Assembly (NCBI GenBank): GCA_035316325.1
Contig: DATHJB010000080.1
Coordinates: 1-64,000 of the forward strand
From: Acidimicrobiales bacterium
GTDB lineage: Bacteria > Actinomycetota > Acidimicrobiia > Acidimicrobiales > VFJN01
Length of the DNA stretch: 64,000 nucleotides
Direction of reading: 5' to 3'
The stretch's first letter is position 1. Each line of letters begins with the position of its first letter. Both the position numbers and the translations under genes were made by a program. This document shows, one piece after another, positions 13,873 through 53,321 of this stretch. Under the pieces are notes generated by a model. It worked only from the letters and a program-made list of their open reading frames with translations. It was not told the DNA's origin and did no database searches.

Positions 13873-13994
13873 CGCGTCATCCCCCCAAGTGGATTTTGCG
13901 TACGGGGTGCAGTTTGGCGCATGGGGCCGCGCCGCGCTTCTCGAATGTGACCCGAGGTAAGCACGGAACGTCGTCTTCGCGGCCCGTTCGTTGT

Positions 13995-14010
13995 GTTAGG
14001 AATACTTAAC
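13995..14010 (+). promoter_or_regulatory. Candidate iron-regulator box before siderophore operon
   Basis: GTTAGGAATACTTAAC, an imperfect palindrome ending directly before the GTG start of the aminotransferase gene. The TTAGG half and the TAAC end fit half-sites of DtxR/IdeR boxes, but only about 10 of 19 positions agree with the full consensus. Position before a siderophore operon is the main support. Confidence 0.4.
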
Positions 14011-15345
14011 GTGCAGGTTCCCGCTCTGACCCGCCAACGTCATCGTGAGTCCGCGGCTCGCACCTACTCCCGGCGCATCCCGATCGAGCTGGTCTCGGCC
14101 AAGGGCGTCTACGTCCGGGACAGCCACGGCAACGAGTACCTCGACTGCCTGGCCGGGGCGGGCGCGCTGCCGCTGGGCCACGGTCATCCGGCGATCGTCG
14201 CCGCCATCGAGGCGGCGCTGCGCGACGAGCTGCCGCTCACCACCCTCGACCTGACGACCCCCACCCGGGACGCCTTCATCGAGGAGCTGTTCACGGTGCT
14301 CCCACCGTCGCTCCAGGACGGGCGCATCCAGTTCTGCGGGCCCAGCGGGGCCGACGCCGTGGAGGCCGCGCTCAAGCTGACCAAGACCGCCACCGGGCGC
14401 ACCGGCATGGTGGCCTTCGGGGGCGGCTACCACGGCATGACGGCCGGCGGGCTGGCGCTCACCGGCGTCGTCGGCCCCAAGCGCCCCCTCGGCCCGCTGC
14501 TGCCCGATGTCCACCACCTGCCCTTTCCCGCCGGGTACCGGTGCCCGTTCGGCACGACGTCGCTGGAGGAGAGCGCGGTGCTGTGCGCCCGGGCCGTCGA
14601 GTGGGCGCTGCACGACGACCACAGCGGCATCGCCCCGCCCGCCGCCGTGGTGGTGGAGCCGGTGCAGGGCGAGGGTGGTGTCCACCCGGCGCCGCCGTCG
14701 TTCGGCCGGGCGGTGCGGGCGGCCTCCCGGGCGGCGGGGACGCTGCTGGTGGCCGACGAGGTGCAGACCGGGCTGGGGCGCACCGGCGAGCTGTGGGCGT
14801 CAGTGCCGGCGGGCCTGGAGCCCGACGTGCTGGTGCTGTCGAAGGCCGTCGGGGGCGGGCTGCCGCTCGCCGTGATCGTGTACCGGCGGGAGCTCGACGT
14901 GTGGGAGCCCGGTGCCCACGCCGGCACCTTCCGGGGCAACCAGCTGGCGATGGCGACGGGCACGGCGACGATCCGCTGCGTCGTGGGCGAGGGGCTGGTG
15001 GAGCACGCCGCGGTCGTGGGCGACCGGCTGGTCGAGGGCCTGCGGACGGTGTCGGCCGGCTGCCCCTGGGTGGGTGACGTGCGGGGCCGGGGGCTGATGG
15101 TGGGCGTCGAGCTGGTCGACCCGGCGCGGCTGGGACGCACGGGCGTCCCCGAGCCCGACGGTGCCGTGGCGTCGTTCCTGCAGCGGGCGATGCTCGACCG
15201 GGGCGTGATCGTCGAGGTGGGCGGCCGCTCCGACGCGGTCGTGCGCTTCCTGCCACCGCTCGTCATCGGACCGGAGGAGGTCGACCGGGTGATCGACGCC
15301 TTCGCCGCCGCGCTGGCGGTGATCCCCGCCGGAGGCCCCGCTTGA
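14011..15345 (+). CDS. Diaminobutyrate-2-oxoglutarate aminotransferase (RhbA-like)
   Basis: 444-residue class III PLP aminotransferase that converts aspartate semialdehyde to L-2,4-diaminobutyrate, first step of a diaminopropane-based siderophore. Motifs: FCGPSGADAVEAALKLTK, GGYHGMTAGGLALTG, VVVEPVQGEGGVHPAP, ADEVQTGLGRTG, and the PLP Lys278 in VLSKAVGGGLPLAV. The GTG at 14011 was chosen over the GTG at 13993 because the latter lies before the candidate operator and lacks family similarity. It overlaps the decarboxylase gene by 4 bp (TTGA). Order and content match rhbA of rhizobactin 1021 clusters. Confidence 0.92.
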   Translation: MQVPALTRQRHRESAARTYSRRIPIELVSAKGVYVRDSHGNEYLDCLAGAGALPLGHGHPAIVAAIEAALRDELPLTTLDLTTPTRDAFIEELFTVLPPSLQDGRIQFCGPSGADAVEAALKLTKTATGRTGMVAFGGGYHGMTAGGLALTGVVGPKRPLGPLLPDVHHLPFPAGYRCPFGTTSLEESAVLCARAVEWALHDDHSGIAPPAAVVVEPVQGEGGVHPAPPSFGRAVRAASRAAGTLLVADEVQTGLGRTGELWASVPAGLEPDVLVLSKAVGGGLPLAVIVYRRELDVWEPGAHAGTFRGNQLAMATGTATIRCVVGEGLVEHAAVVGDRLVEGLRTVSAGCPWVGDVRGRGLMVGVELVDPARLGRTGVPEPDGAVASFLQRAMLDRGVIVEVGGRSDAVVRFLPPLVIGPEEVDRVIDAFAAALAVIPAGGPA

Positions 15346-16784
15346 ACGCAGAGTTGTTCTACGGCACCCCGGGTCGGTTGCGCGAGGTGGTGGCACCCGT
15401 GGTCGACGCGCTCGACTGCTGGGTGCTGCAGCCCGAACGGGGGCCGGCGCCGGACGTCTCGCCCGAGGCGCTGGCGAAGCTGGTGGGGGCGATCGACGTG
15501 TGCCCGGACGACCCGGTGCCGTTCGACGAGGTGCTGGCCGACGTGGGCGAACGGGTGCTGGCCCACGGGGTGCGGCCGTTCGACCCCCGCTGCGTCGCCC
15601 ACCTGCACACGACCACGCTGCTGACGGCGGCCGCCACGGAGCTGGCGATCGGTGTGACCAACCAGTCGCTCGACTCCTACGACCAGGCACCGGCGGCCAC
15701 CCTGCTGGAGGACCACCTGGTGCGGTGGACGGCGGGGCTGCTGGGGCTGCCGGCCGGGGCGTCGGGCGTGCTGACCGCCGGGGGCACGGCGTCGAACCTG
15801 CTGGGGCTCCTGCTGGCGCGGGGCGACGTGACCACCGACGGTCTCCCCGCCGAAGCCCGCACCTGGCGGATCGTCGCGTCGGAGGCGGCCCACTTCTCGG
15901 TGCAGCGAGCCGCGGCGGTGTTGGGGCTGGGGCACCGGGCGGTCGTGCCGGTGGCGACCGACGGCAGCGGGCGGATCGACGTCGCCGCCCTCGACCAGGC
16001 GCTGGCCGACCTCGACCGCCAGGGCCTCCGCTGCATCGCCCTGGTGGGCACCGCCGGCACGACCGACCTCGGGGCGATCGACCCCCTGCCCGCCCTCGCC
16101 GAGCGGGCCGCCCACCGGGGCGCCTGGTTCCACGTCGACGCCGCCGTCGGTGCCGCCTTCGCCTTCAGCGACCGCCTGCGGCCGTGGCTCGACGGCATCG
16201 CCTCGGCCGACTCGGTCACCGCCGACCTCCACAAGCTGTGCTGGCAGCCGATCGGCGCCTCGCTGCTGCTGGCGCGCGACGGCCGGCGCCTCGACCTCGT
16301 CCGCCACCCCAGCGACTACCTCGACCGCGCCGACGACGAGGACGACGCGGACGACGGCAGCGGCCCGCTGAACCTCGTCGGCCGCTCGCTCGACACGTCC
16401 CGCCGCTTCGACGCCCTCAAGGTGGTGGTGTCGCTGCGGTCGACCGGGCGGCGCCGGATGGGAGCGATGGTCGAGCACCTGGTCGACCTGGCCGCGGCCA
16501 CGGCCGAGGTCGTCGCGGCCACGCCCGACCTGGAGCTGCTGGCGCCCGTGTCGTCGGTGACCGTGCTGTTCCGCTGGCGGCCACCGGGGAGCGACGACGG
16601 CGACGCCCTCGACGCCGCCAACACCGCCATCCAGCGGGCCCTGTTCGCCCAGGGCCGGGCGGTGTTGGGCCGCACCCGCCACCGGGGCCGGGTCGCCCTC
16701 AAGCTGACGCTGGTCAACCCGACGACCACGCTCGACGACCTCGTCCCGCTCCTCACCCTCGTCCGGGAGGCCGGCCATGGCTGA
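15342..16784 (+). CDS. L-2,4-diaminobutyrate decarboxylase (RhbB-like)
   Basis: 480-residue group II PLP decarboxylase making 1,3-diaminopropane from diaminobutyrate. Features: HLHTTTLLTAAATELAIGVT, NQSLDSYDQAPAATLLE, GVLTAGGTASNLLGLLLAR, HVDAAVGAAFAFSD and the PLP-binding Lys298 in ADLHKLCWQPIGAS; His184 in SEAAHFSV stacks on the cofactor. TTG start overlapping the previous stop. Its end overlaps the synthetase gene by 8 bp, so the steps are translationally coupled. Corresponds to rhbB. Confidence 0.92.
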   Translation: MNAELFYGTPGRLREVVAPVVDALDCWVLQPERGPAPDVSPEALAKLVGAIDVCPDDPVPFDEVLADVGERVLAHGVRPFDPRCVAHLHTTTLLTAAATELAIGVTNQSLDSYDQAPAATLLEDHLVRWTAGLLGLPAGASGVLTAGGTASNLLGLLLARGDVTTDGLPAEARTWRIVASEAAHFSVQRAAAVLGLGHRAVVPVATDGSGRIDVAALDQALADLDRQGLRCIALVGTAGTTDLGAIDPLPALAERAAHRGAWFHVDAAVGAAFAFSDRLRPWLDGIASADSVTADLHKLCWQPIGASLLLARDGRRLDLVRHPSDYLDRADDEDDADDGSGPLNLVGRSLDTSRRFDALKVVVSLRSTGRRRMGAMVEHLVDLAAATAEVVAATPDLELLAPVSSVTVLFRWRPPGSDDGDALDAANTAIQRALFAQGRAVLGRTRHRGRVALKLTLVNPTTTLDDLVPLLTLVREAGHG

Positions 16785-18642
16785 CGACGGCCGGGCACTC
16801 GGGGCCGCGACGGCCGCCGCCACCGAGACCCTGCTCAACTGCTACATCCGCGAGGCCGACGGCGGCTCGCACGTCGACGGCGGGGTGCTCACGATCCCGG
16901 TGCGGGACGGGGCGGCGGCCGTCGTGGCGGGGCTCCGGCATCGCAGCGCCGCGTTCCGGCATCGCTACGACCTGCCGGTGCGGCTGGCGGTGGGCGACGC
17001 GGCGCCGACACCGCTGGGCTTCCCGGCGCTGGCGGGGCTGCTGCTGGAGGAGCTGGCCGGGCCGGGGACGGACCCGCCGGTGACGCTGCTCGCCCGGATG
17101 GTGGAGAGCCTGCAGAACGTGACGGAGTACCTGGCGGCCCGGGGCGACGACGTCGACCGGCTGTGGTCGGCCGACCCGCTCGGGTTCGTCGAGTCGGAGC
17201 AGGCGCTGCTGCTGGGCCACCCGCTCCACCCCACGCCGAAGAGCCGCGGCGAGATGAGCCCCGCCGCCCGCCGGGCCTACTCACCCGAGCTGCAGTCGAG
17301 GTTCCCGTTGCGGTGGCTGGCGGCCCGCCCCGAGGTCGTCCGCCACGACAGCGCCACGGGCACCCCCGCTCCCCGGCTGATCGAGGAGATGCTGCGGGCC
17401 GACCCGGGCACCGACCAGCAACGGCTCGACACCCTGCTCGCCGGCCTCGGCGACCGGGTGCTGCTCCCGGCCCACCCGTGGGAGCTGGCCCAACTGCGCG
17501 AGCAGCCGGAGGTGGCCCTGATGTTCGAGCGGGCCGACCTGGTCGACCTCGGCCCCCACGGCAGCCCGGTCACGCCCACCACGTCGGTGCGGACCGTCTT
17601 CCAGGCCGGCTGGCCGTGGCAGCTCAAGTTCTCGCTGCACGTGGCCGTCACCAACTCACTGCGGGTCACGCTGCCGAAGGAGCTCGACCGCGCCGTCGAG
17701 GCCCACCGGTTCCGGCAGAGCGCCCTCGGCGAGGAGGCGGCCCGCATCGCTCCCGCCTTCGCCTACGTCGACGACCCCGCCTACCTCACGGTGGTGTTCG
17801 CGGGACGGGTGGTCGACGGGTTCTCGGTGCTGCTGCGCCAGAACCGCTGGCCGGCCGGGTCGACCGCCGACGTCACCTCGGTCACGAGCCTGTGCCAGGA
17901 CCACCCGTTCGGCGGGGCGAGCCGCCTGCAGGCGATCGTCGAGCGGCTCGCCGGTAGCCGGGGCATCCCACCTGCCGACGCGGGCCGAGCGTGGTTCGCC
18001 CGGTTCTGCGAGGTGGCCGTGGTGTCGATCGTGCGGCTGTACCTCGACGCCGGGCTGTGCTTCGAGGCGCACCAGCAGAACACCCTGCTGGAGCTGGACG
18101 CCGAGGGCCTGCCGCAGCGCTGCGTGTACCGCGACAGCCAGGGCTACTTCCACCGGGAGGCCGCCCACGCCGACGTGGTGCGGGTGCTGCCGGGCCTCGG
18201 CGAGGCCACGGAATCCGTCTTTCCGGAGGACCTGGCCGACGAACGGCTGGTGTACTACCCGTTCATGAACCTCACCCTCGGCGTCGTCGACGCGCTGGGA
18301 GCAGGCGGCTGCGCCGACGAGACCGTGCTGCTGGGCGACCTGCGGCGCTGCCTGGAGACCGAGCGCCAGCTGGGGGGTCGCTACCCGGCGACCCTGCTCG
18401 ACCACCTGCTCGACGACCCCCGCTGGCCCTGCAAGGGCAACCTCCGCACCCGCCTGCACGACATGGACGAGCTGGTCGGCGACATCGAGACCCAGTCGGT
18501 CTACGTGTCGGTCCCGAACCCCCTGAGCGAGCGTCCGCCCGCAGCGAGCGCCAGCGAGCGAGGCCCGGCGAAGAGCGAGCGTGGCCCGAGCGGCCCGGCG
18601 CCGCCAGGCGCCAAGAGCGGGAATGAACAGGGGTTGCCGTGA
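16777..18642 (+). CDS. NIS siderophore synthetase, IucA/IucC type (RhbC-like) with repeat-derived tail
   Basis: 621-residue ATP-dependent synthetase of NRPS-independent siderophore synthesis, joining citrate to an N-hydroxy-N-acyl diaminopropane. Motifs: LLGHPLHPTPKSRGEM, LPAHPWELAQLREQP, TTSVRTVF, WQLKFSLHVAVTNSLR, FEAHQQNTLLEL, VYRDSQGYF. The normal domain ends near VYVSVPNPL; the last 38 residues (SERPPAASASERG and onward, with two SERGP units) are encoded by a dispersed ~105-bp DNA repeat also found at the end of the PKS ketosynthase gene. Overlaps the next gene by 4 bp (GTGA). Corresponds to rhbC. Confidence 0.92.
   Translation: MADDGRALGAATAAATETLLNCYIREADGGSHVDGGVLTIPVRDGAAAVVAGLRHRSAAFRHRYDLPVRLAVGDAAPTPLGFPALAGLLLEELAGPGTDPPVTLLARMVESLQNVTEYLAARGDDVDRLWSADPLGFVESEQALLLGHPLHPTPKSRGEMSPAARRAYSPELQSRFPLRWLAARPEVVRHDSATGTPAPRLIEEMLRADPGTDQQRLDTLLAGLGDRVLLPAHPWELAQLREQPEVALMFERADLVDLGPHGSPVTPTTSVRTVFQAGWPWQLKFSLHVAVTNSLRVTLPKELDRAVEAHRFRQSALGEEAARIAPAFAYVDDPAYLTVVFAGRVVDGFSVLLRQNRWPAGSTADVTSVTSLCQDHPFGGASRLQAIVERLAGSRGIPPADAGRAWFARFCEVAVVSIVRLYLDAGLCFEAHQQNTLLELDAEGLPQRCVYRDSQGYFHREAAHADVVRVLPGLGEATESVFPEDLADERLVYYPFMNLTLGVVDALGAGGCADETVLLGDLRRCLETERQLGGRYPATLLDHLLDDPRWPCKGNLRTRLHDMDELVGDIETQSVYVSVPNPLSERPPAASASERGPAKSERGPSGPAPPGAKSGNEQGLP
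18523..18630 (+). repeat. Dispersed ~105-bp repeat, copy 1 (end of RhbC-like gene)
   Basis: Matches the reverse complement of 48025-48129 almost end to end: both begin CTGA(G/C)CGAGCGTCCG, share an identical core of about 42 bp (starting GAGCGAGGCCCGGCGAAGAG) and end AAGAGCGGGAA followed by AACAG. The copy codes for the C-terminal tail of the siderophore synthetase and ends 8 bp before the next start codon. It contains a small hairpin GGCGCC-GCCA-GGCGCC. Confidence 0.9.
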
Positions 18643-19229
18643 ACTGGTCCGTGACCCTGCCGGGAACCGAGGTCGCCCTGCGCTTCGACCGGGCCGACCC
18701 CGACGTCGACGCCCCCCTGCTGCACGACTGGTTCCACCGCCCGCACGTCGCGCCCTGGTGGGGGCCCGACCGCACGGTCGACGAGACCCGCGACTACCTG
18801 CTGCGCCAGCGGGGCAGCGCCCACCTGGTGCCGTGGATCGTGTCGGCCGACGGCGTCGGGCCGTTCGGGTACGTGGAGACCTACCGCCCGGCCGACGACC
18901 CTCTCGCCGACTGGTTCCCGGTGCTCCCGACCGATCGGGGCTGGCACGTGCTGGTCGGCGAGGAATCGGCGATCGGCTCGGGGCTGCCGCGCCTGATGGG
19001 CCGGGCCGTGCTGGCCTACCTGCTGGCGGAGCCCGGGGCTGCGCGCATCGAGCGGGTGATCTGCGAGCCCAACGAGCTGAACACCCGCATGCTCGGCTAC
19101 TGCAAGGCGCTCGGCTACGACGTGCTGGCCGCCGTCGACCTGCCCACCAAGCGGGCGCTGATCCTGGCCTGCACCCGGTCGACGTGCGTGGAGCGCTGGC
19201 CCGGCGACCTGGCCGCGATCGACCGGTGA
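18639..19229 (+). CDS. GNAT acyltransferase for siderophore (RhbD/IucB-like)
   Basis: 196-residue GNAT that acylates the hydroxylated amine of 1,3-diaminopropane to give the hydroxamate. Features of the IucB/RhbD family: LLHDWFHRPHVAPWWGPDRT, FGYVETYRPADDPLADWF, RGWHVLVGEESAIGSGLPRL, IERVICEPNELNTRMLGYCK and ALGYDVLAAVDLPTKRALIL. GTG start overlaps the synthetase stop. One of two such transferases in the operon, the other at its end. Confidence 0.9.
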   Translation: MNWSVTLPGTEVALRFDRADPDVDAPLLHDWFHRPHVAPWWGPDRTVDETRDYLLRQRGSAHLVPWIVSADGVGPFGYVETYRPADDPLADWFPVLPTDRGWHVLVGEESAIGSGLPRLMGRAVLAYLLAEPGAARIERVICEPNELNTRMLGYCKALGYDVLAAVDLPTKRALILACTRSTCVERWPGDLAAIDR

Positions 19230-19236
19230 CCGGGCG

Positions 19237-20502
19237 GTGACCGACTACGACGTCGTCGGGGTGGGGCTGGGGCCGTTCAACCTCGGGTTGGCGGCGCTGC
19301 TGGCGCCGGTGACCGACGTCGACGCCGTGTTCTTCGAGGCCAAGCCCGAGTTCTCGTGGCACTCGGGGCTGCTGCTCGACGGCACCACGCTGCAGGTGCC
19401 GTTCCTGGCCGACCTGGTGACCCTCGCCGACCCGACCAGCCCCTACAGCTTCCTCAACTACCTGCACTGCCGCAGCCGCCTGTACCGCTTCTACTTCTAC
19501 GAGCGGTTCCACGTGCCCCGCCGCGAGTACGACGCCTACGGCCGCTGGGTGGCCGAGCAGCTGCCGTCGTGCCGGTTCGGGCAGCGGGTCGACGCCGTGC
19601 GCCCCGGTCCCGGCGAGGGCTGGACGGTGGTGCTGGCGTCCGGCGAGGAGCACCAGGCGGCAGCGGTGGTGTTGGGGGTGGGCTCCCGCCCGTCGCTGCC
19701 GGCCGGCGCCGCCGACCAGCCGGGCGACCGGGTGCTCCACTCGGCCGGCTACCTGCCCCGTCGCGCCGACGTCCAGGCCGCCGAGCGGGTGACCGTGGTG
19801 GGTTCGGGCCAGAGCGCGGCGGAGGTGTTCGCCGATCTGCTGGCGGCCCCCGGCGACCGGCGGCTCGACTGGCTCACCCGCAGCCGGGGCTTCCTGCCGA
19901 TGGAGTACTCGAAGCTGGGCCTGGAGCACTTCACGCCGGAGTACACGGCCTACTTCCAGGGCCTGCCCGAGGCGCGGCGCGACGCCCTGCGCGCGGGCCA
20001 GGACCTGCTCTACAAGGGCATCTCGGCCGAGACCAGCGAGGCCGTCTTCGACGCGCTGTACGAGGCGACCATCGACGGCGACGACCCGCCGGTCGCGTAC
20101 CGGTCGGCCTGCGAGCTCCGGGGGATCGAGGTCGCGGGCGACGACGGGCCGCTCCGGCTGGCCTTCCACCACCTCGACGAGGACGTGGCGTTCACCCACG
20201 ACACCGACGTCGTCGTGCTGGCCACGGGCTACGAGCCGGCGCCGCTGCCGCTGGCCCCGGAGCTGGTGGAGCGCGACGGCCGGGGTCGCCCGGTCGTCGA
20301 CCACGACTACCGGCTGCGCCTGGTGGACCGGCCCAAGTCGACGCTGTTCGTGCAGAACGCCGAGCTGCACACCCACGGCGTCGGTGCCCCCGACCTGGGC
20401 CTCGGCGCCCACCGCAACTCGGTGGTGGTCAACGCCCTCGCCGACCGTGAGGTGTACCCGGTGCGCGACCGCAACGTGTTCCAGTCCTTCGGCGCCCCAT
20501 GA
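19237..20502 (+). CDS. Amine N-hydroxylase, IucD/SidA family (RhbE-like)
   Basis: 421-residue flavin N-monooxygenase that hydroxylates the terminal amine of diaminopropane using FAD, NADPH and oxygen. Motifs: FAD site DVVGVGLGPFNLGLAALL, HSGLLLDGTTLQVPFLADLV, NADPH site VTVVGSGQSAAEVFADLL, SRGFLPMEYSKLGLEHFTPE, and the C-terminal DVVVLATGYEP. GTG start 8 bp after the transferase stop; ends with an ATGA overlap on the next synthetase. Corresponds to rhbE. Confidence 0.93.
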   Translation: MTDYDVVGVGLGPFNLGLAALLAPVTDVDAVFFEAKPEFSWHSGLLLDGTTLQVPFLADLVTLADPTSPYSFLNYLHCRSRLYRFYFYERFHVPRREYDAYGRWVAEQLPSCRFGQRVDAVRPGPGEGWTVVLASGEEHQAAAVVLGVGSRPSLPAGAADQPGDRVLHSAGYLPRRADVQAAERVTVVGSGQSAAEVFADLLAAPGDRRLDWLTRSRGFLPMEYSKLGLEHFTPEYTAYFQGLPEARRDALRAGQDLLYKGISAETSEAVFDALYEATIDGDDPPVAYRSACELRGIEVAGDDGPLRLAFHHLDEDVAFTHDTDVVVLATGYEPAPLPLAPELVERDGRGRPVVDHDYRLRLVDRPKSTLFVQNAELHTHGVGAPDLGLGAHRNSVVVNALADREVYPVRDRNVFQSFGAP

Positions 20503-22316
20503 GCCCTCCAGCGCACACCGCGATCCTGGCCGCGCTCGACCCGGTCGTATGGGACCGGGCGAACCGCGAGCTGCTGGCCAAGATCGTCACCGAGCTGACC
20601 TTCGAGGACGTCCTCTCGCCCCAACCCGAAACTTCGACAGAAACGGTCGCTGGAGCGCCATCTCCGTCGAAGTTTCGGTTGCCGGTCGCTGCTGCGACGG
20701 CGCTCACGTACACGGCGTCGCGCAAGCACCTGGGGCACTGGCGGGTCGCACCCGAGTCGCTGCGGTGGGAGGTCGGGGGCGAGGAGCAGCCGCTGCCCGA
20801 CGTCACCGACATCGTGGCGGTCGCGCTGCCGGCCCTGGGCGTCGACGCGCCGACCACGGCCGGGGTGATCGCCGAGCTGGCCAACACCGTGCTGTCGGAC
20901 GCCTGGCAGCTGGCCAAGGGCCGCCCGTCGGCCGAGCTGGCCCACGCCGACACCGCCACCGTCGAGACCGAGATGCGGGGCCACCCGTGGATCGCCGCCA
21001 ACAAGGGCCGCCTGGGCTTCGACGCCGACGACCTGGCGTCGTTCACCCCCGAGGCCGCCCGGCCGCTGCGCCTGCTGTGGCTGGCGGCGGCACCGGGTCG
21101 GGCCGACACCCGCCAGGTCGCCGGGCTCGACCACCACACGCTGGTGCAGGAACAGGTGGGCGACGACGTGTGGGACCAGCTGCGGGACGAGGCCGCCCGC
21201 CGCGGGCTCGACCCCGACACCGCCACCTACGTCCCCGTCCACCCCTGGCAGTGGCGCCAGAAGATCGTGCCGCTCCACGCCGCCGACCTGGCCCGGCGCA
21301 CGCTCGTCCCGCTGGGCGAGGCGCCGGCCCGCTACCTGCCCCAGCAGTCGATCCGCACGCTCGCCGACGTCGACCACCCCGACCGCCGCTACCTCAAGCT
21401 GCCGCTGTCGATCCTCAACACGTCGGTGTACCGGGGCCTCCCCCGGGACCGGGCGCTGGCCGCCCCCGCGCTCACCGAGTGGCTCACCGGCCTGGTCGCC
21501 GAGGACCCCTTCCTCGCCGAGGCGGGGCTCGCGCTGCTGGGCGAGGTGGCCAGCGTGTCGGTCGCCCATCGGGCCTTCTCGGCGATCCCCGACATCCCCT
21601 ACCAGCACACCGAGATGCTCGGGGCGATCTGGCGCGACCCCGTGTCGTCGCAGCTCCGGCCCGGCGAGCGGGCGCTGACGCTGGCCGCCCTGCTGCACCG
21701 CGACCCCGCCGGCGTGCCGCTGCTCGCCCCCCTGATCGCGGGCAGCGGGCTCGACGTCGCCGAGTGGGTCGACCGCCTCCACCGGGCCGTGCTCCCGCCG
21801 CTGGTGCACGTGCTCTACCGCTACGGCGTCACGTTCTCGCCCCACGGGCAGAACTGCCTCCTGGTGCTGCGCGACGACGCCCCGGAGCGCCTGGTGGTGA
21901 AGGACTTCGTGGACGACGCCATGGTGTCGGCCGACGACCTGCCGGAGCTCGCCTCGCTCCCGGCCGACGTGCGGCACGTGCTGGGCGACGGCCTCGAGGC
22001 GCCCGTCATCGTGCAGTGGATCCAGGGCGGGCTGCTGGTGTGCGTCTACCGCTACCTGTCGGAGCTGCTCGACGACTGCTTCGGCCTCCCCGAGCCAGTC
22101 TTCTGGGACTCCGCCCGCCGGGCGCTGCGCACCTACCAGGAGCGCAACGCCTCCGACCTCACCGACCGCTACGAGCTCTTCGACCTCGACGCCCCCGCCT
22201 TCGTGAAGCTGTGCCTGAACAGGGTGCGGCTGTTCGAGCGCGGCTACCGCGACGACGCCGAACGCCCCGTGGCCGCCGCGTCGGGCTGGATCGACAACCC
22301 GCTGGAGCTGGTGTGA
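20499..22316 (+). CDS. NIS siderophore synthetase, IucC type (RhbF-like)
   Basis: 605-residue second synthetase, adding the other hydroxamate arm to citrate. Motifs: KGRPSAELAHADT, HPWIAANKGRLGF, YVPVHPWQWRQKI, QQSIRTLADV, LKLPLSILNTSVYRGL, FSPHGQNCLLVLRDDAP and VVKDFVDDAM. In the N-terminal variable loop (about residues 43-60: PETSTETVAGAPSPSKFRLP) the DNA is a palindrome (see 20626-20678), seemingly an in-frame insertion. ATGA overlap upstream, GTGA overlap downstream. Corresponds to rhbF. Confidence 0.92.
   Translation: MSPPAHTAILAALDPVVWDRANRELLAKIVTELTFEDVLSPQPETSTETVAGAPSPSKFRLPVAAATALTYTASRKHLGHWRVAPESLRWEVGGEEQPLPDVTDIVAVALPALGVDAPTTAGVIAELANTVLSDAWQLAKGRPSAELAHADTATVETEMRGHPWIAANKGRLGFDADDLASFTPEAARPLRLLWLAAAPGRADTRQVAGLDHHTLVQEQVGDDVWDQLRDEAARRGLDPDTATYVPVHPWQWRQKIVPLHAADLARRTLVPLGEAPARYLPQQSIRTLADVDHPDRRYLKLPLSILNTSVYRGLPRDRALAAPALTEWLTGLVAEDPFLAEAGLALLGEVASVSVAHRAFSAIPDIPYQHTEMLGAIWRDPVSSQLRPGERALTLAALLHRDPAGVPLLAPLIAGSGLDVAEWVDRLHRAVLPPLVHVLYRYGVTFSPHGQNCLLVLRDDAPERLVVKDFVDDAMVSADDLPELASLPADVRHVLGDGLEAPVIVQWIQGGLLVCVYRYLSELLDDCFGLPEPVFWDSARRALRTYQERNASDLTDRYELFDLDAPAFVKLCLNRVRLFERGYRDDAERPVAAASGWIDNPLELV
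20626..20678. repeat. Palindromic element inside IucC-type gene
   Basis: Arms CCGAAACTTCGAC (20626-20638) and GTCGAAGTTTCGG (20666-20678) are perfect 13-bp complements with a 27-bp loop. The element is read in frame in a variable loop of the synthetase. Its base composition is less GC-rich than the surrounding codons. The form resembles mobile palindromic elements that insert in frame in coding regions. Confidence 0.7.
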
Positions 22317-24025: not shown

Positions 24026-24044
24026 TTGAGTGCGCAAATCTCAA
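24026..24044. promoter_or_regulatory. Small inverted repeat before TetR gene
   Basis: TTGAG (24026-24030) and CTCAA (24040-24044) separated by 9 bp, 33 bp before the TetR start. Candidate autoregulatory site; arms are short. Confidence 0.35.
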
Positions 24045-24077
24045 GGACTTTCACGCACGACTAGCCTGGCCGGACAC

Positions 24078-24704
24078 ATGAGCCAGCGACGACCCTTGAC
24101 CCGTCAAGAGAGTCAGGCCCGCACACGATCACGGCTCGTCAGGTCGGCGGAGCGGGTGTTCCTGAAGCAGGGTTACCTCGCGGCCTCGATAGGCCAGATC
24201 GCCCGCACCGCGGGGTACACCACCGGCGCCGTCTACTCGAACTTCACCAGCAAGGAGGACCTCGGTCTCGCGGTCATCCAGCGCCACATGGTGAAGGGCA
24301 TCGTCGCGATGCAGGAGCAGCTCGACGCGGCCGAGCCGACGGTGACGGCGCGCCTGGCGGCCCTGGGCCAGTGGGTCGACGACCAGCTCGGCGACGAGGA
24401 GTGGGTCGTGCTGGTGACCGAGTTCGCGCTGTCGACGCGGCACAAGCCGGCGATGCGCGCCCAGTCCAGCCAGGGCCTGATGGCGGCACGCATGGCGATA
24501 TCCGGCATCCTCGACGGGCAGAGCCGGGAGCTGGGCGTCCCCCTGCCGATGAGCTCCGACAGGCTGGCCGCGGCGATCCTCGGCCTGGGCATCGGCGTGT
24601 CGGTGCTGCGGATCGCCGACCCGAGCACCGACTCGAGGACGTTCGGCGAGGCCACCGGGATCCTGCTCGCCCAGCTGTCGGCGGGCGTCAACGGCACCCA
24701 CTGA
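24078..24704 (+). CDS. TetR family regulator
   Basis: 208 residues. N-terminal helix-turn-helix: SRLVRSAERVFLKQGYLAAS, then IGQIARTAGYTTGAVYSNFT SKEDL across about residues 15-62. The C-terminal ligand domain is unrelated to named subfamilies. ATG at 24078 chosen because the 16 preceding in-frame residues have no family match. It sits upstream of, and in the same direction as, the secreted polyester hydrolase gene, which it may regulate. Confidence 0.88.
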   Translation: MSQRRPLTRQESQARTRSRLVRSAERVFLKQGYLAASIGQIARTAGYTTGAVYSNFTSKEDLGLAVIQRHMVKGIVAMQEQLDAAEPTVTARLAALGQWVDDQLGDEEWVVLVTEFALSTRHKPAMRAQSSQGLMAARMAISGILDGQSRELGVPLPMSSDRLAAAILGLGIGVSVLRIADPSTDSRTFGEATGILLAQLSAGVNGTH

Positions 24705-24816: not shown

Positions 24817-25692
24817 ATGCGAACTCGACCACGTTCACTCGCCGCGGCCCTGGTCGCCGTGGCACTGAGCCTGGGCGCCCTCGTCGTCAGCCCGACGGCC
24901 AGTGGCGCGCAGACGCCTAACCCGCTCCAACGGGGCCCGGCGCCGACCAGCGCCAGCATCGACGCCGCGACGGGGCCCTTCACCACCAGCTCGGCCGCCG
25001 TCGCCCGCCAGACCAACTTCGGCGGCGGCACGATCTACTACCCGAACGACACCAGCCAGGGCACCTTCGGCGTGATCGCCGTGTCGCCGGGCTTCCTGTC
25101 GCCGCAGTTCATCATCCAGTGGGCCGGGCCGTTGCTGGCCTCCCACGGGTTCGTGGTGATCACCATCGACACGCTGGGCCTCTTCGACCTCCCGAACAGC
25201 CGGTCGCAGCAGCTGACGGCCGCGCTGAACTACGTGGTCAACTCCGCCCCCGCCGCCGTGCGGCAGCGGGTCGACCCGACCCGTCGGGCGGTCATGGGCC
25301 ACTCGATGGGTGGCGGCGGCACGATCGAGGCTGTGCGTGACAACCCGTCGTACCAGGCCGCCGTCGCGCTGCAGCCGTGGGACACATTCGTGTTCTTCAA
25401 CACGGTCAGCGTGCCGACGATGATCATCGGCGCCCAGAACGACTTCATCGCCGGCGTCGGATCGTTCGCCGAGCCGTTCTACGACCAGATCCCGGCCGCC
25501 TCGGAGAAGGCCTACCTGGAGGTCGCGGGGGCCGACCACTTCCTCGGTGGAGCGGCGAACAACCCGCAGGGTCGCATGGCGATCGTGTGGATGAAGCGCT
25601 ACGTCGACAACGACACCCGGTACGAGCAGTTCATGTGCCCACCGCCGGCGTCGACCCGCATCTCCGAGTACCGGAACACGTGCCCCGGCTAG
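24817..25692 (+). CDS. Secreted polyester hydrolase, cutinase/PETase family
   Basis: 291-residue serine hydrolase with a signal peptide (charged MRTRPRS, hydrophobic core, likely cut after SGA31). The mature protein matches actinobacterial cutinases and PETase along its length: PNPLQRGPAPT, FGGGTIYYPND, ASHGFVVITIDTL, RRAVMGHSMGGGG, VPTMIIGAQNDFIAGV, GADHF, MKRYVDNDTRYEQF. Triad: Ser163, Asp209, His241. Oxyanion site near Phe93 (Tyr in the known enzymes) and Met164. Trp188 in LQPWD corresponds to the aromatic-clamp Trp. Cys274 and Cys289 form the C-terminal disulfide. Natural substrate is probably cutin or another polyester; PET activity is unproven. Confidence 0.93.
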   Translation: MRTRPRSLAAALVAVALSLGALVVSPTASGAQTPNPLQRGPAPTSASIDAATGPFTTSSAAVARQTNFGGGTIYYPNDTSQGTFGVIAVSPGFLSPQFIIQWAGPLLASHGFVVITIDTLGLFDLPNSRSQQLTAALNYVVNSAPAAVRQRVDPTRRAVMGHSMGGGGTIEAVRDNPSYQAAVALQPWDTFVFFNTVSVPTMIIGAQNDFIAGVGSFAEPFYDQIPAASEKAYLEVAGADHFLGGAANNPQGRMAIVWMKRYVDNDTRYEQFMCPPPASTRISEYRNTCPG

Positions 25693-39692: not shown

Positions 39693-41138
39693 CCCGGCGA
39701 CGGCCGGGGCCCCGAACCAGCGGGTGAGCGCCGCCTCGAGGCCCGCGGCGTCGTCGCCGGAGCCGACCCAGGCCACGTGCCCGTCGGGGCGGACCAGCAC
39801 CAGGTCACCGGCGTCGAGGCCCGCCACGCCCAGCCCGGGCACCGCCCGGACCCGGTCGCCCCACGGCACGTCGGCGACGTCGACCCCGCACCCGAGAAGC
39901 AGGCCGTGGTGTCGGGTCGGATCCCACCAGCTGCAGGGCGGGAGGCGGGTGCCGACGAGCGGGTGGTCGTCCGGGTCGGCCGGGTAGCGGACGTCGACGC
40001 CGCTGACCACCGCAGCGAGCTGGTCGCGGGCGGCGGGCAGAGCGAGCAGCTCCCCCAGCACCGCCCGCAGCGGGTCGAGGTCCGCCGAGCCGAGCAGCAG
40101 CAGCTCCTGGGCCCGGACGTCGTCCTGCACCGCGGCGCCGACCGGGTGGCGCTCGTCGTGGTAGCTGTCGAGCAGGTCGAGTGCAGTCGAGCCCTGCACC
40201 ACCGCCGCCAGCTTCCAACCCAGGTTGAAGGCGTCGCCCAGCCCGCTGTTCAGCGCCTGGCCGCCGATCGGCATCTGCCGGTGGGCGGCGTCGCCGGCCA
40301 GCAGCACCCGGCCCCGCCGGTACTCGGCAGCCTTCCGGGTGACGTTGTCGAAGGCGTTCAGCCACCGGGGCGTGCCCGACGAGACGTCCTCGCCGGTGAC
40401 CCGCCTCCAGGCACCGGCCAGCTCCGCGAACGTCGGGTCGCGCCCGGCCGGGGCCCGGCCCGCCTCGTGGACCATCAACCGGGTCACGCCGTCGGGCCGC
40501 CGGGCGGCGATCGCGAGCCCGCCCGGCAGCCGCTCGAAGCGCCGGTTCGGTACGTCGATGCCCGCGACGTCGCCCCTCAGCAGCTCGCGGGTCGCGTCCG
40601 TACCGGGGAACGCGATCCCCGCGAGCCGCCGGACGGTGCTGTCCTGCCCGTCGCAGCCCACGAGGTACGAGCATCGGAGGGTGCTGGTCCCGTCCGGTGC
40701 CGTGACGGTCGCCGCGACGTGGTCGTCGTGCACCTCGAGGGCGACCAGCTCGTGGCGACGGCGGACGACAGCGCCGAGCTGCACCGCCCACGTTCCCAGC
40801 AGGGCCTCGGTGTCGGTCTGCGGCACCTTCCAATGACCGGCGTACGGGCTGGCCACGCCACCGACGGCGAGCGGCAGCCCCCCGAAGTGACCCACCTCCT
40901 CCCGGGGCGGCCTCACATTGGGCGCCCCGCCCAGCCGCTCCACCAGGCCCCGCTGGTCGAGGATCTCCATCGTGCGGGCGCTCAGCTGCGACGCCCGCGA
41001 CTCGTCGTGCGGCGAGGCCAGCCGCTCCACCACCACGACGTCGACGCCGCCCAGCCGCAGCTCGCCCGCCAGCAGCAGGCCGACCGGACCGGCCCCGACC
41101 ACGACGACGTCGGTCGTCAGCTGTCGCACGGAGCTCAC
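39681..41138 (-). CDS. FAD-dependent aromatic hydroxylase, PKS tailoring
   Basis: 485-residue class A flavin monooxygenase (PHBH fold): VVVVGAGPVGLLLAGELRLG (FAD), LVGCDGQDSTVRRLAG (DG motif), RVLLAGDAAHRQMPIGGQAL (GD motif), C-terminal thioredoxin-like part ending RWFGAP. It hydroxylates or rearranges the polyketide using NAD(P)H and oxygen. GTG start at 41138 overlaps the aromatase stop by 4 bp. Last gene of the minus-strand PKS operon and one of three paralogs in the cluster. Confidence 0.92.
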   Translation of the reverse strand: MSSVRQLTTDVVVVGAGPVGLLLAGELRLGGVDVVVVERLASPHDESRASQLSARTMEILDQRGLVERLGGAPNVRPPREEVGHFGGLPLAVGGVASPYAGHWKVPQTDTEALLGTWAVQLGAVVRRRHELVALEVHDDHVAATVTAPDGTSTLRCSYLVGCDGQDSTVRRLAGIAFPGTDATRELLRGDVAGIDVPNRRFERLPGGLAIAARRPDGVTRLMVHEAGRAPAGRDPTFAELAGAWRRVTGEDVSSGTPRWLNAFDNVTRKAAEYRRGRVLLAGDAAHRQMPIGGQALNSGLGDAFNLGWKLAAVVQGSTALDLLDSYHDERHPVGAAVQDDVRAQELLLLGSADLDPLRAVLGELLALPAARDQLAAVVSGVDVRYPADPDDHPLVGTRLPPCSWWDPTRHHGLLLGCGVDVADVPWGDRVRAVPGLGVAGLDAGDLVLVRPDGHVAWVGSGDDAAGLEAALTRWFGAPAVAGSRR

Positions 41139-42073
41139 CGCCGGCTCTCGGCGTACTCCTTGGCGTGGCCCAGCGTGGCGAGGCTGTTGCCGCTGAGCGC
41201 CTTGTGCACGAACTCCTTCGCCTCGGCGACCCCGGCGCCCTCGCCCAGCACCGCCGCCACGTTGGCCTCGTTGATCGCCACCGTGTGCCGCGACGCCGCG
41301 ACCACCCCGTCGTCGGTGTCGGTGAGCAGCCAGCGGCCGGTGTGCAGCGTCATCAGCGCCGGCACCACCACCTGCTTGTAGACGATCCTCGTGGACGGGA
41401 AGCACACCCGCACCGACTTGGTGGTGTGGGTCGACCCGTCCTTCGTCCTCGTGTCCATCTCCAGCACCTGCAGGCCGGGCGTCGGCTCGTCGAGCGCAAC
41501 CCGGCCCACGTGCGGCAGCCGCTCCTCCCAGCGGTCGGCCTCGTTGAGGAAGTCGTAGACGTCCTTCCCGGCCCCCGCGATCTCGACGGTGTCGTCGAAC
41601 GTGAGCACCAGGTCGCGGCGGCCGATCGCCAGCTCGGCGTTGGCCTTCAGCGCCGCCAGCTCCGAGGTGCTGTTGCGGTCGACGGCCTGGTCGATCCACT
41701 CCAGCTTGGCGGGGTCGTCGTCGACGGCGCGGTAGTCGTGCAGCAGCCGCACCCGCGCCACGTCCTCGGCCTGCGGCTCGACGATCCAGGTGCCGCCCAT
41801 CGCTCCGACGGGAGGGGTCGACACCTCCTGGCGGAACTCGATGCGGCGCTCGGCCGAGTCGAGCACCCGGCGCGACGTCCACGCCTTGGCCTCGCCGTTG
41901 GCGGTGGCCCAGATGCGGATGCGCTCACCGGTGTCGCTGCGCTCCAGCTGCTCGACGTGGATGGTGGGCGGGAACACCTGGGGCCAGTTGGTGACGTCCG
42001 CGATGAGGTCGTAGACCTGCGCCGCGGGGGCCTGCACGGTGATCCCGTGCTCGACGTTGCGGGTCTCGGGCAT
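41135..42073 (-). CDS. Two-domain aromatase/cyclase of type II PKS
   Basis: 312 residues with two START/SRPBCC domains: residues 1-150 (HGITVQAPAAQVYDLIADVT, NWPQVFPPTIHVEQLER) and 160-312 (TVEIAGAGKDVYDFLNEADR, WEERLPHVGRVALDEPTPGL). This didomain type (like ActVII or JadD) dehydrates and aromatises the first ring of C9-reduced polyketides. It fits the ketoreductase encoded just upstream, from which it is separated by a strong hairpin. Confidence 0.93.
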   Translation of the reverse strand: MPETRNVEHGITVQAPAAQVYDLIADVTNWPQVFPPTIHVEQLERSDTGERIRIWATANGEAKAWTSRRVLDSAERRIEFRQEVSTPPVGAMGGTWIVEPQAEDVARVRLLHDYRAVDDDPAKLEWIDQAVDRNSTSELAALKANAELAIGRRDLVLTFDDTVEIAGAGKDVYDFLNEADRWEERLPHVGRVALDEPTPGLQVLEMDTRTKDGSTHTTKSVRVCFPSTRIVYKQVVVPALMTLHTGRWLLTDTDDGVVAASRHTVAINEANVAAVLGEGAGVAEAKEFVHKALSGNSLATLGHAKEYAESRR

Positions 42074-42093
42074 GGTGGCTCCTCTCGTCTCGT

Positions 42094-42143
42094 CGTTCTG
42101 TCTTCGCTGAGCCGGCTATTCCGGGCTCAGCGAAGACAGAACG
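42094..42143. other. Strong hairpin between ketoreductase and aromatase genes
   Basis: Arms CGTTCTGTCTTCGCTGAGCC (42094-42113) and its exact complement (42124-42143), 20 bp each with a 10-bp loop. No run of T follows on either strand, and the aromatase gene needs transcription through it, so a simple terminator is unlikely; attenuation, mRNA stabilisation or a remnant of an inverted-repeat element are possible. Confidence 0.85.
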
Positions 42144-42148
42144 CTGGT

Positions 42149-42925
42149 TCAGAAGTTGCCCAGGCCGCCGCAGACGTTGATCGCCTGCGAGGTGACCGAG
42201 GCCGCGGTGTCGGAGAGCAGGTAGCCGACCATGCCGGCCACCTCGTCGGGCGTGGAGTACCGGCCGAGCGGGATCTTGGCCTGGAACTGCTCGAGGATCT
42301 GGTCCTCGCTGGTCTCGTAGGCCGCGGCGTAGCCCTGCCGCACCCGCTGGGCCATGGGCGTCTCGACGTAGCCGGGGCAGACGGCGTTGACGGTGATGCC
42401 GGTCTTGGCCAGCTCGTTGCCGAGCGCCTTGGTGAAGCCGACCACGCCATGCTTCGACGCCGAGTACGGCGCCCCCAGCACCACACCCTGCTTGCCGGCT
42501 GTCGAGGCGATGTTGACGATGCGGCCCCACGGCAGCTCCCGCATCCCGCCGATCGACAGGACGTCGCGGCTCATGAGGAAGACGCTGTGGAGGTTGGTGG
42601 CGACCACGTCGAACCACAGGTCGTCGGCGATCTCGGCGGTCACCCCGCCGCCGCTGCGCCCGGCGTTGTTGACCAGGACGTCGACCGGTCCGTAGGTGTC
42701 GACCGCGGCCTCGACGAAGGCGCGCACCTGCTCGGGGTCGCGGACGTCGCAGGCCACGCCCTGGGCCTCGTGGCCGTCCTCGCGGAGCTCCTTGACGGTG
42801 AGGGCGACGTTGTCGGCGTCGCGGGCGCAGAGGAACACCTTGTTCCCCCCGGCGGCGACGAGCTGGGCCACGGCGCGGCCGATCCCGCTGGTGGCCCCGG
42901 TGACGAGTGCGACGTGTTGTGGCAT
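42149..42925 (-). CDS. Polyketide ketoreductase (SDR, ActIII-like)
   Basis: 258-residue short-chain dehydrogenase: cofactor motif VTGATSGIGRAVAQL, NNAGRSGGG (NNAG), catalytic Ser in IVNIASTAGK, YxxxK in PYSASKHGV, and the PGYVETPMA stretch of PKS ketoreductases. It reduces the C9 keto group of the nascent chain with NADPH. Lies between accC and the aromatase gene in the operon. Confidence 0.93.
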   Translation of the reverse strand: MPQHVALVTGATSGIGRAVAQLVAAGGNKVFLCARDADNVALTVKELREDGHEAQGVACDVRDPEQVRAFVEAAVDTYGPVDVLVNNAGRSGGGVTAEIADDLWFDVVATNLHSVFLMSRDVLSIGGMRELPWGRIVNIASTAGKQGVVLGAPYSASKHGVVGFTKALGNELAKTGITVNAVCPGYVETPMAQRVRQGYAAAYETSEDQILEQFQAKIPLGRYSTPDEVAGMVGYLLSDTAASVTSQAINVCGGLGNF

Positions 42926-42955
42926 GGCTCCTCCTGTGTGGGCAGGTCAGACGGG

Positions 42956-44338
42956 TCAGGCGGGTCGGGTGACTCGGTGGTTGCGGGCGCGGAGCACCTC
43001 GTCGACGATCGACGTGCTGTGCTCCCCGGCCCGGAAGGTCGGGTGGTGGACGACCTCGCGCAGGAAGTCGGTGGTGGTGCGGACGCCGGGGCCGCGCACC
43101 CGGAACTCGCCCAGGGCACGGTCCATGCGGTCAAGCGCCTGGTCGCGGTCGGGTGCCCAGACCACGAGCTTGGCGAGCAGCGAGTCGTAGGCGGCCGGCA
43201 CCCGGTAGCCGGTGAAGCCGTGGGTGTCGACCCGCACGAACGGCCCGCCGGCGGGGACGAACTCCTCGAGCACCCCCGGCGTCGGGGCGAAGTCGCGGTC
43301 GGGGTCCTCCACGTTGATGCGGCACTCGACGGCGGCACCCCGGAGGACCACGTCGTCCTGGGAGAGCTTCAGCGGCTCGCCGGCGGCGACGTGCAGCTGC
43401 TGGTGCACCAGGTCGACGCCGGTGGCCATCTCGGTGACCGGGTGCTCCACCTGGATCCGGCAGTTGACCTCCATGAAGTAGAACTCGCCCTCCGGGCCGA
43501 CCAGGAACTCGAACGTGCCGGCGCCCACGTAGCCGGCGGCCCGGGCGCCGTCGACGGCCACCTGCCCCATCTGCTGCACGATCCCGGGCGCCAGGCGGGG
43601 CGCCGGCGTCTCCTCCAGCAGCTTCTGGTGACGACGCTGGACCGAGCAGTCGCGCTCGCCCAGGTGCAGCACCGTGCCGTGGGTGTCGGCCAGCACCTGG
43701 ATCTCCACGTGGCGGGCGGTCTCCAGGTAGCGCTCGACATACACCCGGGGGTCGCCGAACAGGGCCTGCGCCCCCGCCCGGGTCTCCAGGTAGGCGTCGG
43801 GGAAGTCGGCGCTGCGCTGCACCATCCGCATGCCCCGACCGCCGCCGCCGGCCGCGGCCTTGATGATCACCGGGTAGCCGACCTCGTCGGCGGTGCGATG
43901 GGCCACGTCGACCGACCGCAGCGGCTCCAGGCTCCCCGGCAGCATCGGGAGGCCGGCCCGGGCCATCATCCGGCGGGCCACGGTCTTGTCGCCCAGCTGG
44001 GCGGTCACCTCGGGCGGCGGGCCGATGAGCACGATGTCGTTGTCGCGGCAGACCTCGGCGAAGTCCGGGTCCTCGGAGAGGAAGCCGTAGCCGGGGTGGA
44101 TGGCCTCCGCGCCGGTGCGGCGGGCCGTCTCCACGATGGCCGGGATGTTGAGGTAGCTGCGCTTGGCCGGGGCCGGGCCGATCTGCACCGACTCGTCGGC
44201 GTAGGCGACCACCGCCGAGTCGCGGTCCTCGGTGGAGTGGACCGCCACGGTGGAGATGCCCAGCTCCCGGCAGGCCCGGGCGACGCGCAGGGCGATCTCG
44301 CCCCGGTTGGCGATCAGGACCTTGCGGAACATGGTCAC
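42956..44338 (-). CDS. accC: Acetyl-CoA carboxylase, biotin carboxylase subunit
   Basis: 460-residue biotin carboxylase: KVLIANRGEIALRVARACRE, HPGYGFLSED, ATP-grasp loop IIKAAAGGGGRGMRMVQ, ERDCSVQRRHQKLLEE, EFYFMEVNCRIQVEHPVTEM and GAAVECRINVEDP. It carboxylates the biotin of the adjacent carrier protein. A dedicated carboxylase inside a polyketide cluster raises malonyl-CoA supply, as with JadJ. ATGA overlap with the carrier gene. Confidence 0.95.
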   Translation of the reverse strand: MTMFRKVLIANRGEIALRVARACRELGISTVAVHSTEDRDSAVVAYADESVQIGPAPAKRSYLNIPAIVETARRTGAEAIHPGYGFLSEDPDFAEVCRDNDIVLIGPPPEVTAQLGDKTVARRMMARAGLPMLPGSLEPLRSVDVAHRTADEVGYPVIIKAAAGGGGRGMRMVQRSADFPDAYLETRAGAQALFGDPRVYVERYLETARHVEIQVLADTHGTVLHLGERDCSVQRRHQKLLEETPAPRLAPGIVQQMGQVAVDGARAAGYVGAGTFEFLVGPEGEFYFMEVNCRIQVEHPVTEMATGVDLVHQQLHVAAGEPLKLSQDDVVLRGAAVECRINVEDPDRDFAPTPGVLEEFVPAGGPFVRVDTHGFTGYRVPAAYDSLLAKLVVWAPDRDQALDRMDRALGEFRVRGPGVRTTTDFLREVVHHPTFRAGEHSTSIVDEVLRARNHRVTRPA

Positions 44339-44826
44339 GTCCCGCCTGCGGCCGTCTCGCCGAGGGCGACGGCGAAGAGGCGGTCGCCGAACTCGACCGG
44401 GGCGCCGTCGTCGACCAGCACCTCGACGACGCAGCCGGCCGCGTCGGCCTCGACCGGGATCATCAGCTTCATCGCCTCGATGATCCCGACCTGCTGGCCC
44501 TTCACGACCGTGTCACCCACGTCGACGAACGGCGGGGCGCCGGGCTCGGGGGAGCGGTAGAAGACACCGACCGTGGAGGCCGTGAGGTAGGCACGGCCCG
44601 GTGGATCGGCCTCGGCGGGCCCCGCCGGGGCGGCGGTCGTGGCCACGTCCTGCTGCTCGGTGGCGACGATCGTCCCGGCGGGGCCCTCCGACGCCCACTC
44701 GAGCTCCACGGACACGTCCCCGGCCCGCACCCGCACGGCCCGCGGCCGCGACGGTGCCTGGGCGGCGAGCGCGAGGGCGCTCTCCTGCACCCGCTGCACC
44801 AGCGACGCCAGGGCCTCGTCGGTCAT
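44335..44826 (-). CDS. accB: Acetyl-CoA carboxylase biotin carboxyl carrier protein
   Basis: 163 residues: a helical N-terminal part, a linker rich in Ala/Pro, then the biotinyl domain with [20 protein letters not shown] and the biotinylation Lys120 in [12 protein letters not shown] overlaps both with accC (downstream) and accDA (upstream), giving a coupled carboxylase operon. Confidence 0.94.
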
Positions 44827-46505: not shown

Positions 46506-46514
46506 GACGGCGAC

Positions 46515-46769
46515 CTAGGCGTTCGCCAGCGCGAGCAGCTCGCGTGGCGTCCGGGCGGCGGTGGTGGCGTCGTCGTCGAGCTCGACGCCGTACTCGTGGG
46601 TGATCTGCGCGGCGGTCTCCAGGAGCGCCAGCGAGTCGTAGCCGAGCAGCTCGAACTCGGTGTCGAGGATGTCGGCGTCGAGGTCGACGCCCTCCTCCTC
46701 GCCGGCGCACTCCCGCAGGATGCGGCGCAGGTCGTCGAGCGTGATCTGTTGAATGCGTTGGTCGGTCAT
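46515..46769 (-). CDS. Type II PKS acyl carrier protein
   Basis: 84 residues, acidic, with the phosphopantetheine Ser46 in LLGYDSLALLETAAQI, normal for PKS carriers. It holds the growing chain for the ketosynthase pair. Lies 42 bp downstream of the chain-length factor gene, the standard KS-CLF-ACP order. Confidence 0.95.
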   Translation of the reverse strand: MTDQRIQQITLDDLRRILRECAGEEEGVDLDADILDTEFELLGYDSLALLETAAQITHEYGVELDDDATTAARTPRELLALANA

Positions 46770-46811
46770 CGCGATCTCCTCGTCGGGGGGACTGGATCGG
46801 GGGATCAGGGT

Positions 46812-49384: not shown

Positions 49385-49713
49385 GTGGGTTCAGCCCTCC
49401 AGTGGTAGAAGCGGGTGGCCATGGCGTCGGCCGGGCTGCGCCAGGTGGCGGGGTCGTAGGCGTCGATGTGCGCCTTCAACGCCTCGCTGATGCCGACGAA
49501 GAGCGGGTGGGTCCGGGTCGCCTGGATGGTCTCGCCACCGTCGTCGGTGTCGAAGTCCTGCAGGTGGAAGTAGAGGCCCTGGTAGTGGAAGAGCTGGCGC
49601 CGCCGGGTGCCCATCACGTCGGGCATCTCGGTGGCGTCGAACTCGGCGAAGAGCTTGGCGACGTCGTCGGCCGAGCCGGGCTGCATGCGGGCGACGATGA
49701 GCGTGCTGTGCAT
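49381..49713 (-). CDS. TcmI/JadI-family polyketide cyclase
   Basis: 110-residue dimeric ferredoxin-like cyclase (polyketide synthesis cyclase family): [74 protein letters not shown]. This family closes later rings, including the fourth ring in angucyclines (JadI, UrdF, LanF). ATG at 49713; the longer frame to 49905 is a shadow of the upstream hydroxylase. ATGA overlap with the ketosynthase start. Confidence 0.93.
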
Positions 49714-49714
49714 G

Positions 49715-51190: not shown

Positions 51191-51255
51191 TTGCCCTCTT
51201 TCGACGACTGCTTTCCAGTAGTCCCGAGGGCCACCCATGGCGTCAATAGACGCCG

Positions 51256-51280
51256 TTACAAGCTTTGGACAAGTTCTTTC
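51256..51280 (-). promoter_or_regulatory. Shared promoter motif, copy 1 (hydroxylase operon)
   Basis: On the minus strand TTGTCCAAAGCTTGTA is followed about 10 bp later by TATTGAC. Nearly the same order, TTGTCGAAAGCTTGTA then CATTGAC, occurs at about 53322-53357 before the paralogous hydroxylase gene. Likely promoter or operator for a common regulator of the cluster. Confidence 0.6.
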
Positions 51281-51306
51281 AGGGTCGCGTCAAGTGCCGG
51301 AGCCCG

Positions 51307-51337: not shown

Positions 51338-51388
51338 GGGCACACACGGAAGAGGAATCCTGTTCCGCCTGCCTGCGAGGAGCCCGCC

Positions 51389-52888: not shown

Positions 52889-52898
52889 GGGCCCGGCG

Positions 52899-53309: not shown

Positions 53310-53321
53310 CACTCCCATGAA

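Follow-up and report, generated by a model that had tools for sequence, protein, structure and literature searches.

Bacterial cutinases and PET hydrolases act by a canonical serine-hydrolase mechanism, established for the family given its catalytic triad and oxyanion residues. Their solved members include PHL7/PES-H1 (PDB 7NEI, 7CUV and 7E31), a type I compost polyester hydrolase, the Thermobifida cutinases TfCut2 and Cut1/2 (4CG1, 5LUI) with Cut190 (5ZNO), a Thermomonospora curvata triacylglycerol lipase/alpha-beta hydrolase (7YKQ), and the type IIb enzyme IsPETase (5XG0). Type I enzymes have neither a second disulfide nor an extended loop, and carry His at the position of IsPETase W159 and Phe or Tyr at that of S238 (Joo 2018, PMC5785972). 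In PHL7 the sites L93 and Q95 affect stability, which is raised by L93F, while L210F halves activity and H185S strongly reduces it (PMC10076380). PHL7-like enzymes have been read as products of anaerobic Thermoanaerobacterales (PMC11782994, Thb; PMC13151691).

The 64,000-nucleotide stretch of Acidimicrobiales DNA analysed here (the window) encodes, at 24817-25692 on the forward strand, a putatively secreted serine hydrolase of the type I PETase/cutinase-like kind, an assignment drawn from the open reading frame, Pfam PF12740, PDB sequence matches, and an AlphaFold2 model with its fold matches. The frame runs from ATG to TAG (291 residues plus stop) with GC contents of 0.62/0.53/0.93 at the three codon positions, similar to those of neighbouring genes, which in a window of 73% GC identifies it as a real gene. 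PF12740 ('PETase') matches at 332.5 bits (E 2.3e-99) over profile positions 3-263 of 263, bearing out the original prediction of a full-length family match, and against a curated cut-off of 28 bits chance is excluded; the Ser-Asp-His triad and G-x-S-x-G alpha/beta-hydrolase fold that define this PET hydrolase-like family are likewise present. Its best matches among solved proteins comprise reconstructed ancestral PETases as well as PET hydrolases and cutinases, and identity to any match found is 58% or less. By its sequence the protein is a divergent new member, of an ordinary kind, of the type I bacterial cutinase/PET-hydrolase family. It aligns with the BHET hydrolase BdeA equivalog (NCBIfam NF051441) over profile positions 16-304 of 305, but at 351.8 bits, well below the 520-bit equivalog cut-off, it is not BdeA.

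Residues 1-31 (MRTRPRSLAAALVAVALSLGALVVSPTASGA, 24817..24909, +) form a predicted Sec signal peptide, recognised heuristically by hydrophobicity and the -3/-1 rule, with a basic n-region, a hydrophobic h-region (residues 10-24) and a cleavage-like SGA/QT site after residue 31; the signal peptide proposed earlier is thus Sec-like by simple rules only. Cleavage here would leave a mature alpha/beta-hydrolase domain of residues 32-291 (24910..25689, +; 27.7 kDa, pI 5.6).

The triad residues Ser163, Asp209 (25441..25443, +) and His241 (25537..25539, +) align with IsPETase S160, D206 and H237, exactly where they had been placed from the sequence. Ser163 (codon 25303-25305) lies in the GHSMGG nucleophile elbow (25297..25314, +), found as predicted in the form GHSMGGGG, and GHSM is invariant across the 88 aligned relatives. 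The predicted clamp residue Trp188 (25378..25380, +) corresponds to IsPETase W185 and PHL7 W156, and behind it Phe217 (25465..25467, +) occupies the site of PHL7 His185 and IsPETase Ser214. The oxyanion/clamp loop Phe93-Leu94-Ser95-Pro96 (25093..25104, +) aligns with IsPETase Y87-T88-A89-R90. The only two cysteines of the protein, Cys274 and Cys289 (25636..25683, +), align with IsPETase C273 and C289, in agreement with the C-terminal disulfide pair that had been claimed. The triad, GHSMG, the clamp Trp and this Cys pair are all invariant or nearly so among the relatives. By the family mechanism, Ser163, activated by His241 and Asp209, would attack the ester carbonyl, with the backbone amides of Phe93 and Met164 forming the oxyanion hole and an acyl or aromatic group held in a shallow cleft at the surface, with Phe93 on one side and Trp188 on the other. 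We infer export, this oxyanion geometry and esterase activity.

An AlphaFold2 model built on a 50-sequence alignment has a mean pLDDT of 89.7, and most ten-residue blocks from residue 41 onward average above 90. Residues 1-20, within the predicted signal peptide, have low pLDDT, as fits that prediction, and two cleft-lining blocks are lower (residues 91-100, mean 78; residues 241-250, mean 80). Foldseek and VIA-align overlay the model on PHL7, PES-H1, Cut190, TfCut, the Streptomyces lipase 1JFR and LCC with Z of 43-46 and rmsd of 0.9-1.1 Å over 252-260 residues. The comparison with Thermobifida cutinase by which the original prediction was to be judged thus gives an rmsd of about 1 Å; such an overlay speaks for the modelled fold, not for substrate.

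Among the known enzymes, PHL7/PES-H1 has the same fold (0.9 Å) at 52% identity, and shares the triad, the Phe/Trp clamp, the single disulfide, the absence of an extended loop, and a secretion signal preceding an NP..RGP start. It differs in the cleft, where its T-A-G is replaced by L94-S95-P96, Ser by I99, Gln by L125, His by F217 and Leu by F242, and GG244-245 of the window protein is a further difference. The Thermobifida cutinases and Cut190 (about 50% identity) have the same fold and triad, and the former share the His162 and Phe242 states and the one disulfide, but T. fusca cutinase has Tyr and His in place of Phe93 and Phe217. The T. curvata enzyme 7YKQ, at 55% identity the closest of the non-ancestral solved enzymes compared, also has Phe at the oxyanion site, but this is followed by T-A-S, and it has His behind the clamp Trp and another loop past the catalytic His. 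IsPETase (47% identity) shares the fold family, triad, clamp and the Asp following the clamp Trp, but its C203-C239 disulfide, three-residue loop extension, W159 and S238 are absent from the window protein.

Two cleft features had been put forward as substitutions that tune activity. The 88 relatives used here are mainly the best 80 loci of one scan, with the genome's own paralogues and family relatives, and within this set, whose residue frequencies are biased towards near relatives, the oxyanion/clamp site is Phe in 51 and Tyr in 37. Phe93 is indeed present in place of Tyr, but as the majority state, found also in PHL7 (F63), it is not a special tuning change. In the LGLFDLPNSRS loop, F123 and L125 align with the stability-affecting PHL7 sites L93 and Q95 (PMC10076380); F123, common among the relatives, equals the PHL7 L93F change. 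The rarer changes surround the cleft (Leu94, Ile99, Leu125, Phe217 and Gly244-Gly245): I99, A184, L243 and G245 occur in none of the 88, G244 in one, F217 in two, and L94 and L125 in three each. These cleft substitutions offer natural variation at positions already studied in PHL7 and IsPETase, and residues that are bulky or otherwise changed suggest a subsite unlike that of known PET hydrolases.

By every published sequence criterion that could be tested the window protein is type I (cutinase-like). The sites of IsPETase W159 and S238 hold His162 and Phe242, both type I states, and those of C203 and C239 hold A206 and L243, so there is no additional disulfide and the conserved C-terminal one is kept; 16 residues separate His241 from Trp258, as in LCC, compared with 19 in IsPETase, so there is no extended loop, and the subsite I clamp of Tyr/Phe plus Trp is represented by F93 and W188. 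With the second disulfide, extended loop and W159 all missing, membership of type II (IIa or IIb) was rejected.

Placement within the family is less settled. A group of 26 Streptomyces, Actinomadura and Pseudonocardiaceae sequences shares S95-P96, a residue other than Thr at 94 and one other than His at 217, states rare in the 69-sequence group holding PHL7, LCC, TfCut and 7YKQ: IsPETase site 88 is Thr in 66 of the 69 and almost none of the 26, and site 214 is His in 68 of the 69 versus Met in 18 of the 26. A quick 105-row tree joins the window protein to the 26 Actinomycetota sequences (fork 91, drawn open) and puts it on the type I side, a starred branch (99) shutting out the type II references. 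In a careful 61-row tree it adjoins type II with support of just 67/35, and in both trees it is a long branch of 0.6-0.75 changes per column. None of the placements tried was rejected by AU tests: constraining the protein with the 20 sampled members of the Actinomycetota group gave p-AU 0.69 and a likelihood above that of the free search, and constraining it with the PET-active set gave p-AU 0.26. A position beyond types I and II was to count against the original prediction, and the protein shows no such position. Tree support is weak and conflicting, and the shared residues favour grouping with the 26. On this basis a separate type I sub-lineage, uniting the window protein with its Streptomyces, Actinomadura and Pseudonocardiaceae relatives, is a tentative and rather doubtful proposal. 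Its hallmarks would be the oxyanion-loop pattern F-[VIL]-S-P, bulk at the site of IsPETase S93, and Met or Phe rather than His behind the clamp Trp, and no PDB match found falls within it. If the sub-lineage is real, its members would prefer other substrates than the known PET hydrolases do.

We consider it highly probable that the gene, itself probably monocistronic, encodes a serine ester hydrolase that leaves the cell by Sec export and belongs to the type I (bacterial cutinase-like) PETase branch, PF12740, and the most likely natural substrate would be plant or microbial ester material such as cutin or suberin oligomers or acylglycerols. It is very improbable that it is instead a non-catalytic or degraded family member, as its long branch and the two cleft loops of lower pLDDT might suggest, since the catalytic and structural residues are all intact, as is the reading frame with its normal codon-position GC.

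How far activity extends to polymers depends on the cleft. That the enzyme hydrolyses PET about as efficiently as PHL7 or LCC and serves the bacterium on aromatic polyesters could be argued from the 0.9 Å fold match to PHL7, from Phe93/Trp188 and Ile211, which repeat PHL7 F63/W156/I179, from F123 with its equivalence to the stabilising L93F change, and from the presence of PHL7 itself in a genome of the same family. Yet identity to PHL7 is just 52%, Phe242 corresponds to PHL7 L210, a position at which Phe cut activity by half, Phe217 replaces the His whose exchange for Ser strongly lowered it (PMC10076380), I99, L125 and GG244-245 are rare or unique among the relatives, and no evidence of a terephthalate pathway was found. 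L94, I99, L125, F217 and G244-G245 would together lower the odds of strong PET activity relative to PHL7, and given the losses seen with L210F and H185S we regard efficient PET hydrolysis as unlikely. The same losses leave nearly even chances for a lipase or general esterase whose main substrates are acylglycerols or small esters and whose action on polymers is slight, within an F-[VIL]-S-P type I sub-group; this is a narrower version of the extracellular ester hydrolase preferred above, not its opposite. It draws on residues 94-96 and 217, on the quick tree and on the AU test, in which the corresponding grouping had the higher likelihood, and is countered by the conflict between trees and by the likewise unrejected placement with the PET-active set. 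A role on cutin- or suberin-like polyesters we would rank, as a matter of judgement, between these two.

Nothing indicates that the hydrolase gene shares an operon or regulon with its TetR neighbour (24030-24704), which has no counterpart beside the relatives' genes except for one weak local match; a promoter scan gave no signal above chance, and genes for PET catabolism did not turn up in its context. The host assembly (6.37 Mb in 244 contigs, 96.8% complete) gave five ring-hydroxylating dioxygenase hits. The best candidate tested, the other four having been taken at most as far as an NCBIfam scan, matches other oxygenases better than terephthalate dioxygenase and lends no support to a PET-monomer pathway. 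A tannase-family (PF07519) protein on contig C123 (L104:778-2361, -) was considered as an MHETase and rejected, as it looks like a feruloyl esterase, its closest PDB match being fungal feruloyl esterase B with MHETase weaker; such a protein fits growth on plant material. The window also holds an NRPS-independent siderophore cluster (13993-22313, +) with a class-III aminotransferase, a PLP decarboxylase, two IucA/IucC synthetases, a GNAT acetyltransferase and a lysine/ornithine-type N-monooxygenase, and an aromatic (type II) polyketide-like cluster (41138-54877) with paired ketosynthases, a cyclase-like protein, acetyl-CoA carboxylase subunits and two FAD aromatic hydroxylases.

Three genes of the host match PF12740 strongly. 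Besides the window gene there is one on contig C110 and one on C69, whose products are 55.7% and 45.7% identical to the window protein. The C110 paralogue (L001:293-1138, +) is a second type I protein, 65% identical to 7YKQ, with Arg right after the catalytic His and, on its short 5.4 kb contig, a TetR-like ORF downstream (seen by eye only). The C69 paralogue (L003:1501-2427, -; C69:20226-21002) has a lipobox-like LAAC near its start, an extended loop and a Cys pair corresponding to IsPETase C203/C239, yet His at W159; its nearest solved relatives are type II, and it is probably a type II-like actinobacterial enzyme anchored to the membrane as a lipoprotein.

PETase homologues are sparse around this host, present in 3 of 7 genomes of its GTDB family (E 1e-20) and 13 of 397 of the order (E 1e-30), and the exact motif F-x-S-P-Q-F-I-I-Q-W is encoded in no other genome among 395 of the class, so that no close orthologue was found. 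Relatives at order level (L099, L101, L102 and L103, in G047, G300 and G017) include lipobox-bearing homologues that have both Cys of the second disulfide; L101 also carries GWSMGGGG, and L099 shows HSC past the catalytic His, as in IsPETase.

Within the GTDB family, 'Thermoanaerobacterales bacterium ZC4RG19' and 'Acidimicrobiales bacterium Zod_Metabat.708' belong to a single genus. The ZC4RG19 PETase gene (L025:5974-6930, record PKRH01000083.1) encodes a protein about 99% identical to PHL7, differing from chain 7E31 at one of 257 residues, on a contig of 76% GC. In a comparison limited to the window genome and Thermobifida, ZC4RG19 ribosomal-operon proteins are closer to the window genome than to Thermobifida, and a 288-residue ORF near S11 is 85% identical to the former versus 53% to the latter. 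This similarity and the high GC make the Firmicute label of the record look wrong, and the label, repeated in the PHL7/Thb literature, is probably mistaken: it seems that the host is related to Acidimicrobiia and is no anaerobic Firmicute. This suggests that the Thermoanaerobacterales attribution of PHL7-like enzymes deserves a check; Thb, 90% identical to PHL7 (PMC11782994), may come from the same lineage. The literature searched, with most subscription papers outside its scope, nowhere mentions that PHL7 might originate from Acidimicrobiia. In their natural form PHL7-type proteins have a C-terminal tail absent from the solved constructs (HSGSGGGTTPPPEDDCPWWAWWC, L025:6859-6927; HSGGGGTTPTTTPTTLPPDDDCAWWQWWC in the sister L021 protein) that ends in a conserved C-x-W-W-x-W-W-C; as a guess, this Trp-rich tail, which the window protein does not have, might bind surfaces or polymers.

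The single gene described here is one more divergent sequence in an enzyme family already well populated, and what it offers lies in its cleft substitutions and its interesting host. The GTDB family of this bacterium, with PHL7/PES-H1 and close relatives, points to a likely actinobacterial (Acidimicrobiia) source of PHL7, and as PHL7 is one of the best natural PET hydrolases, this family is a place to seek more.
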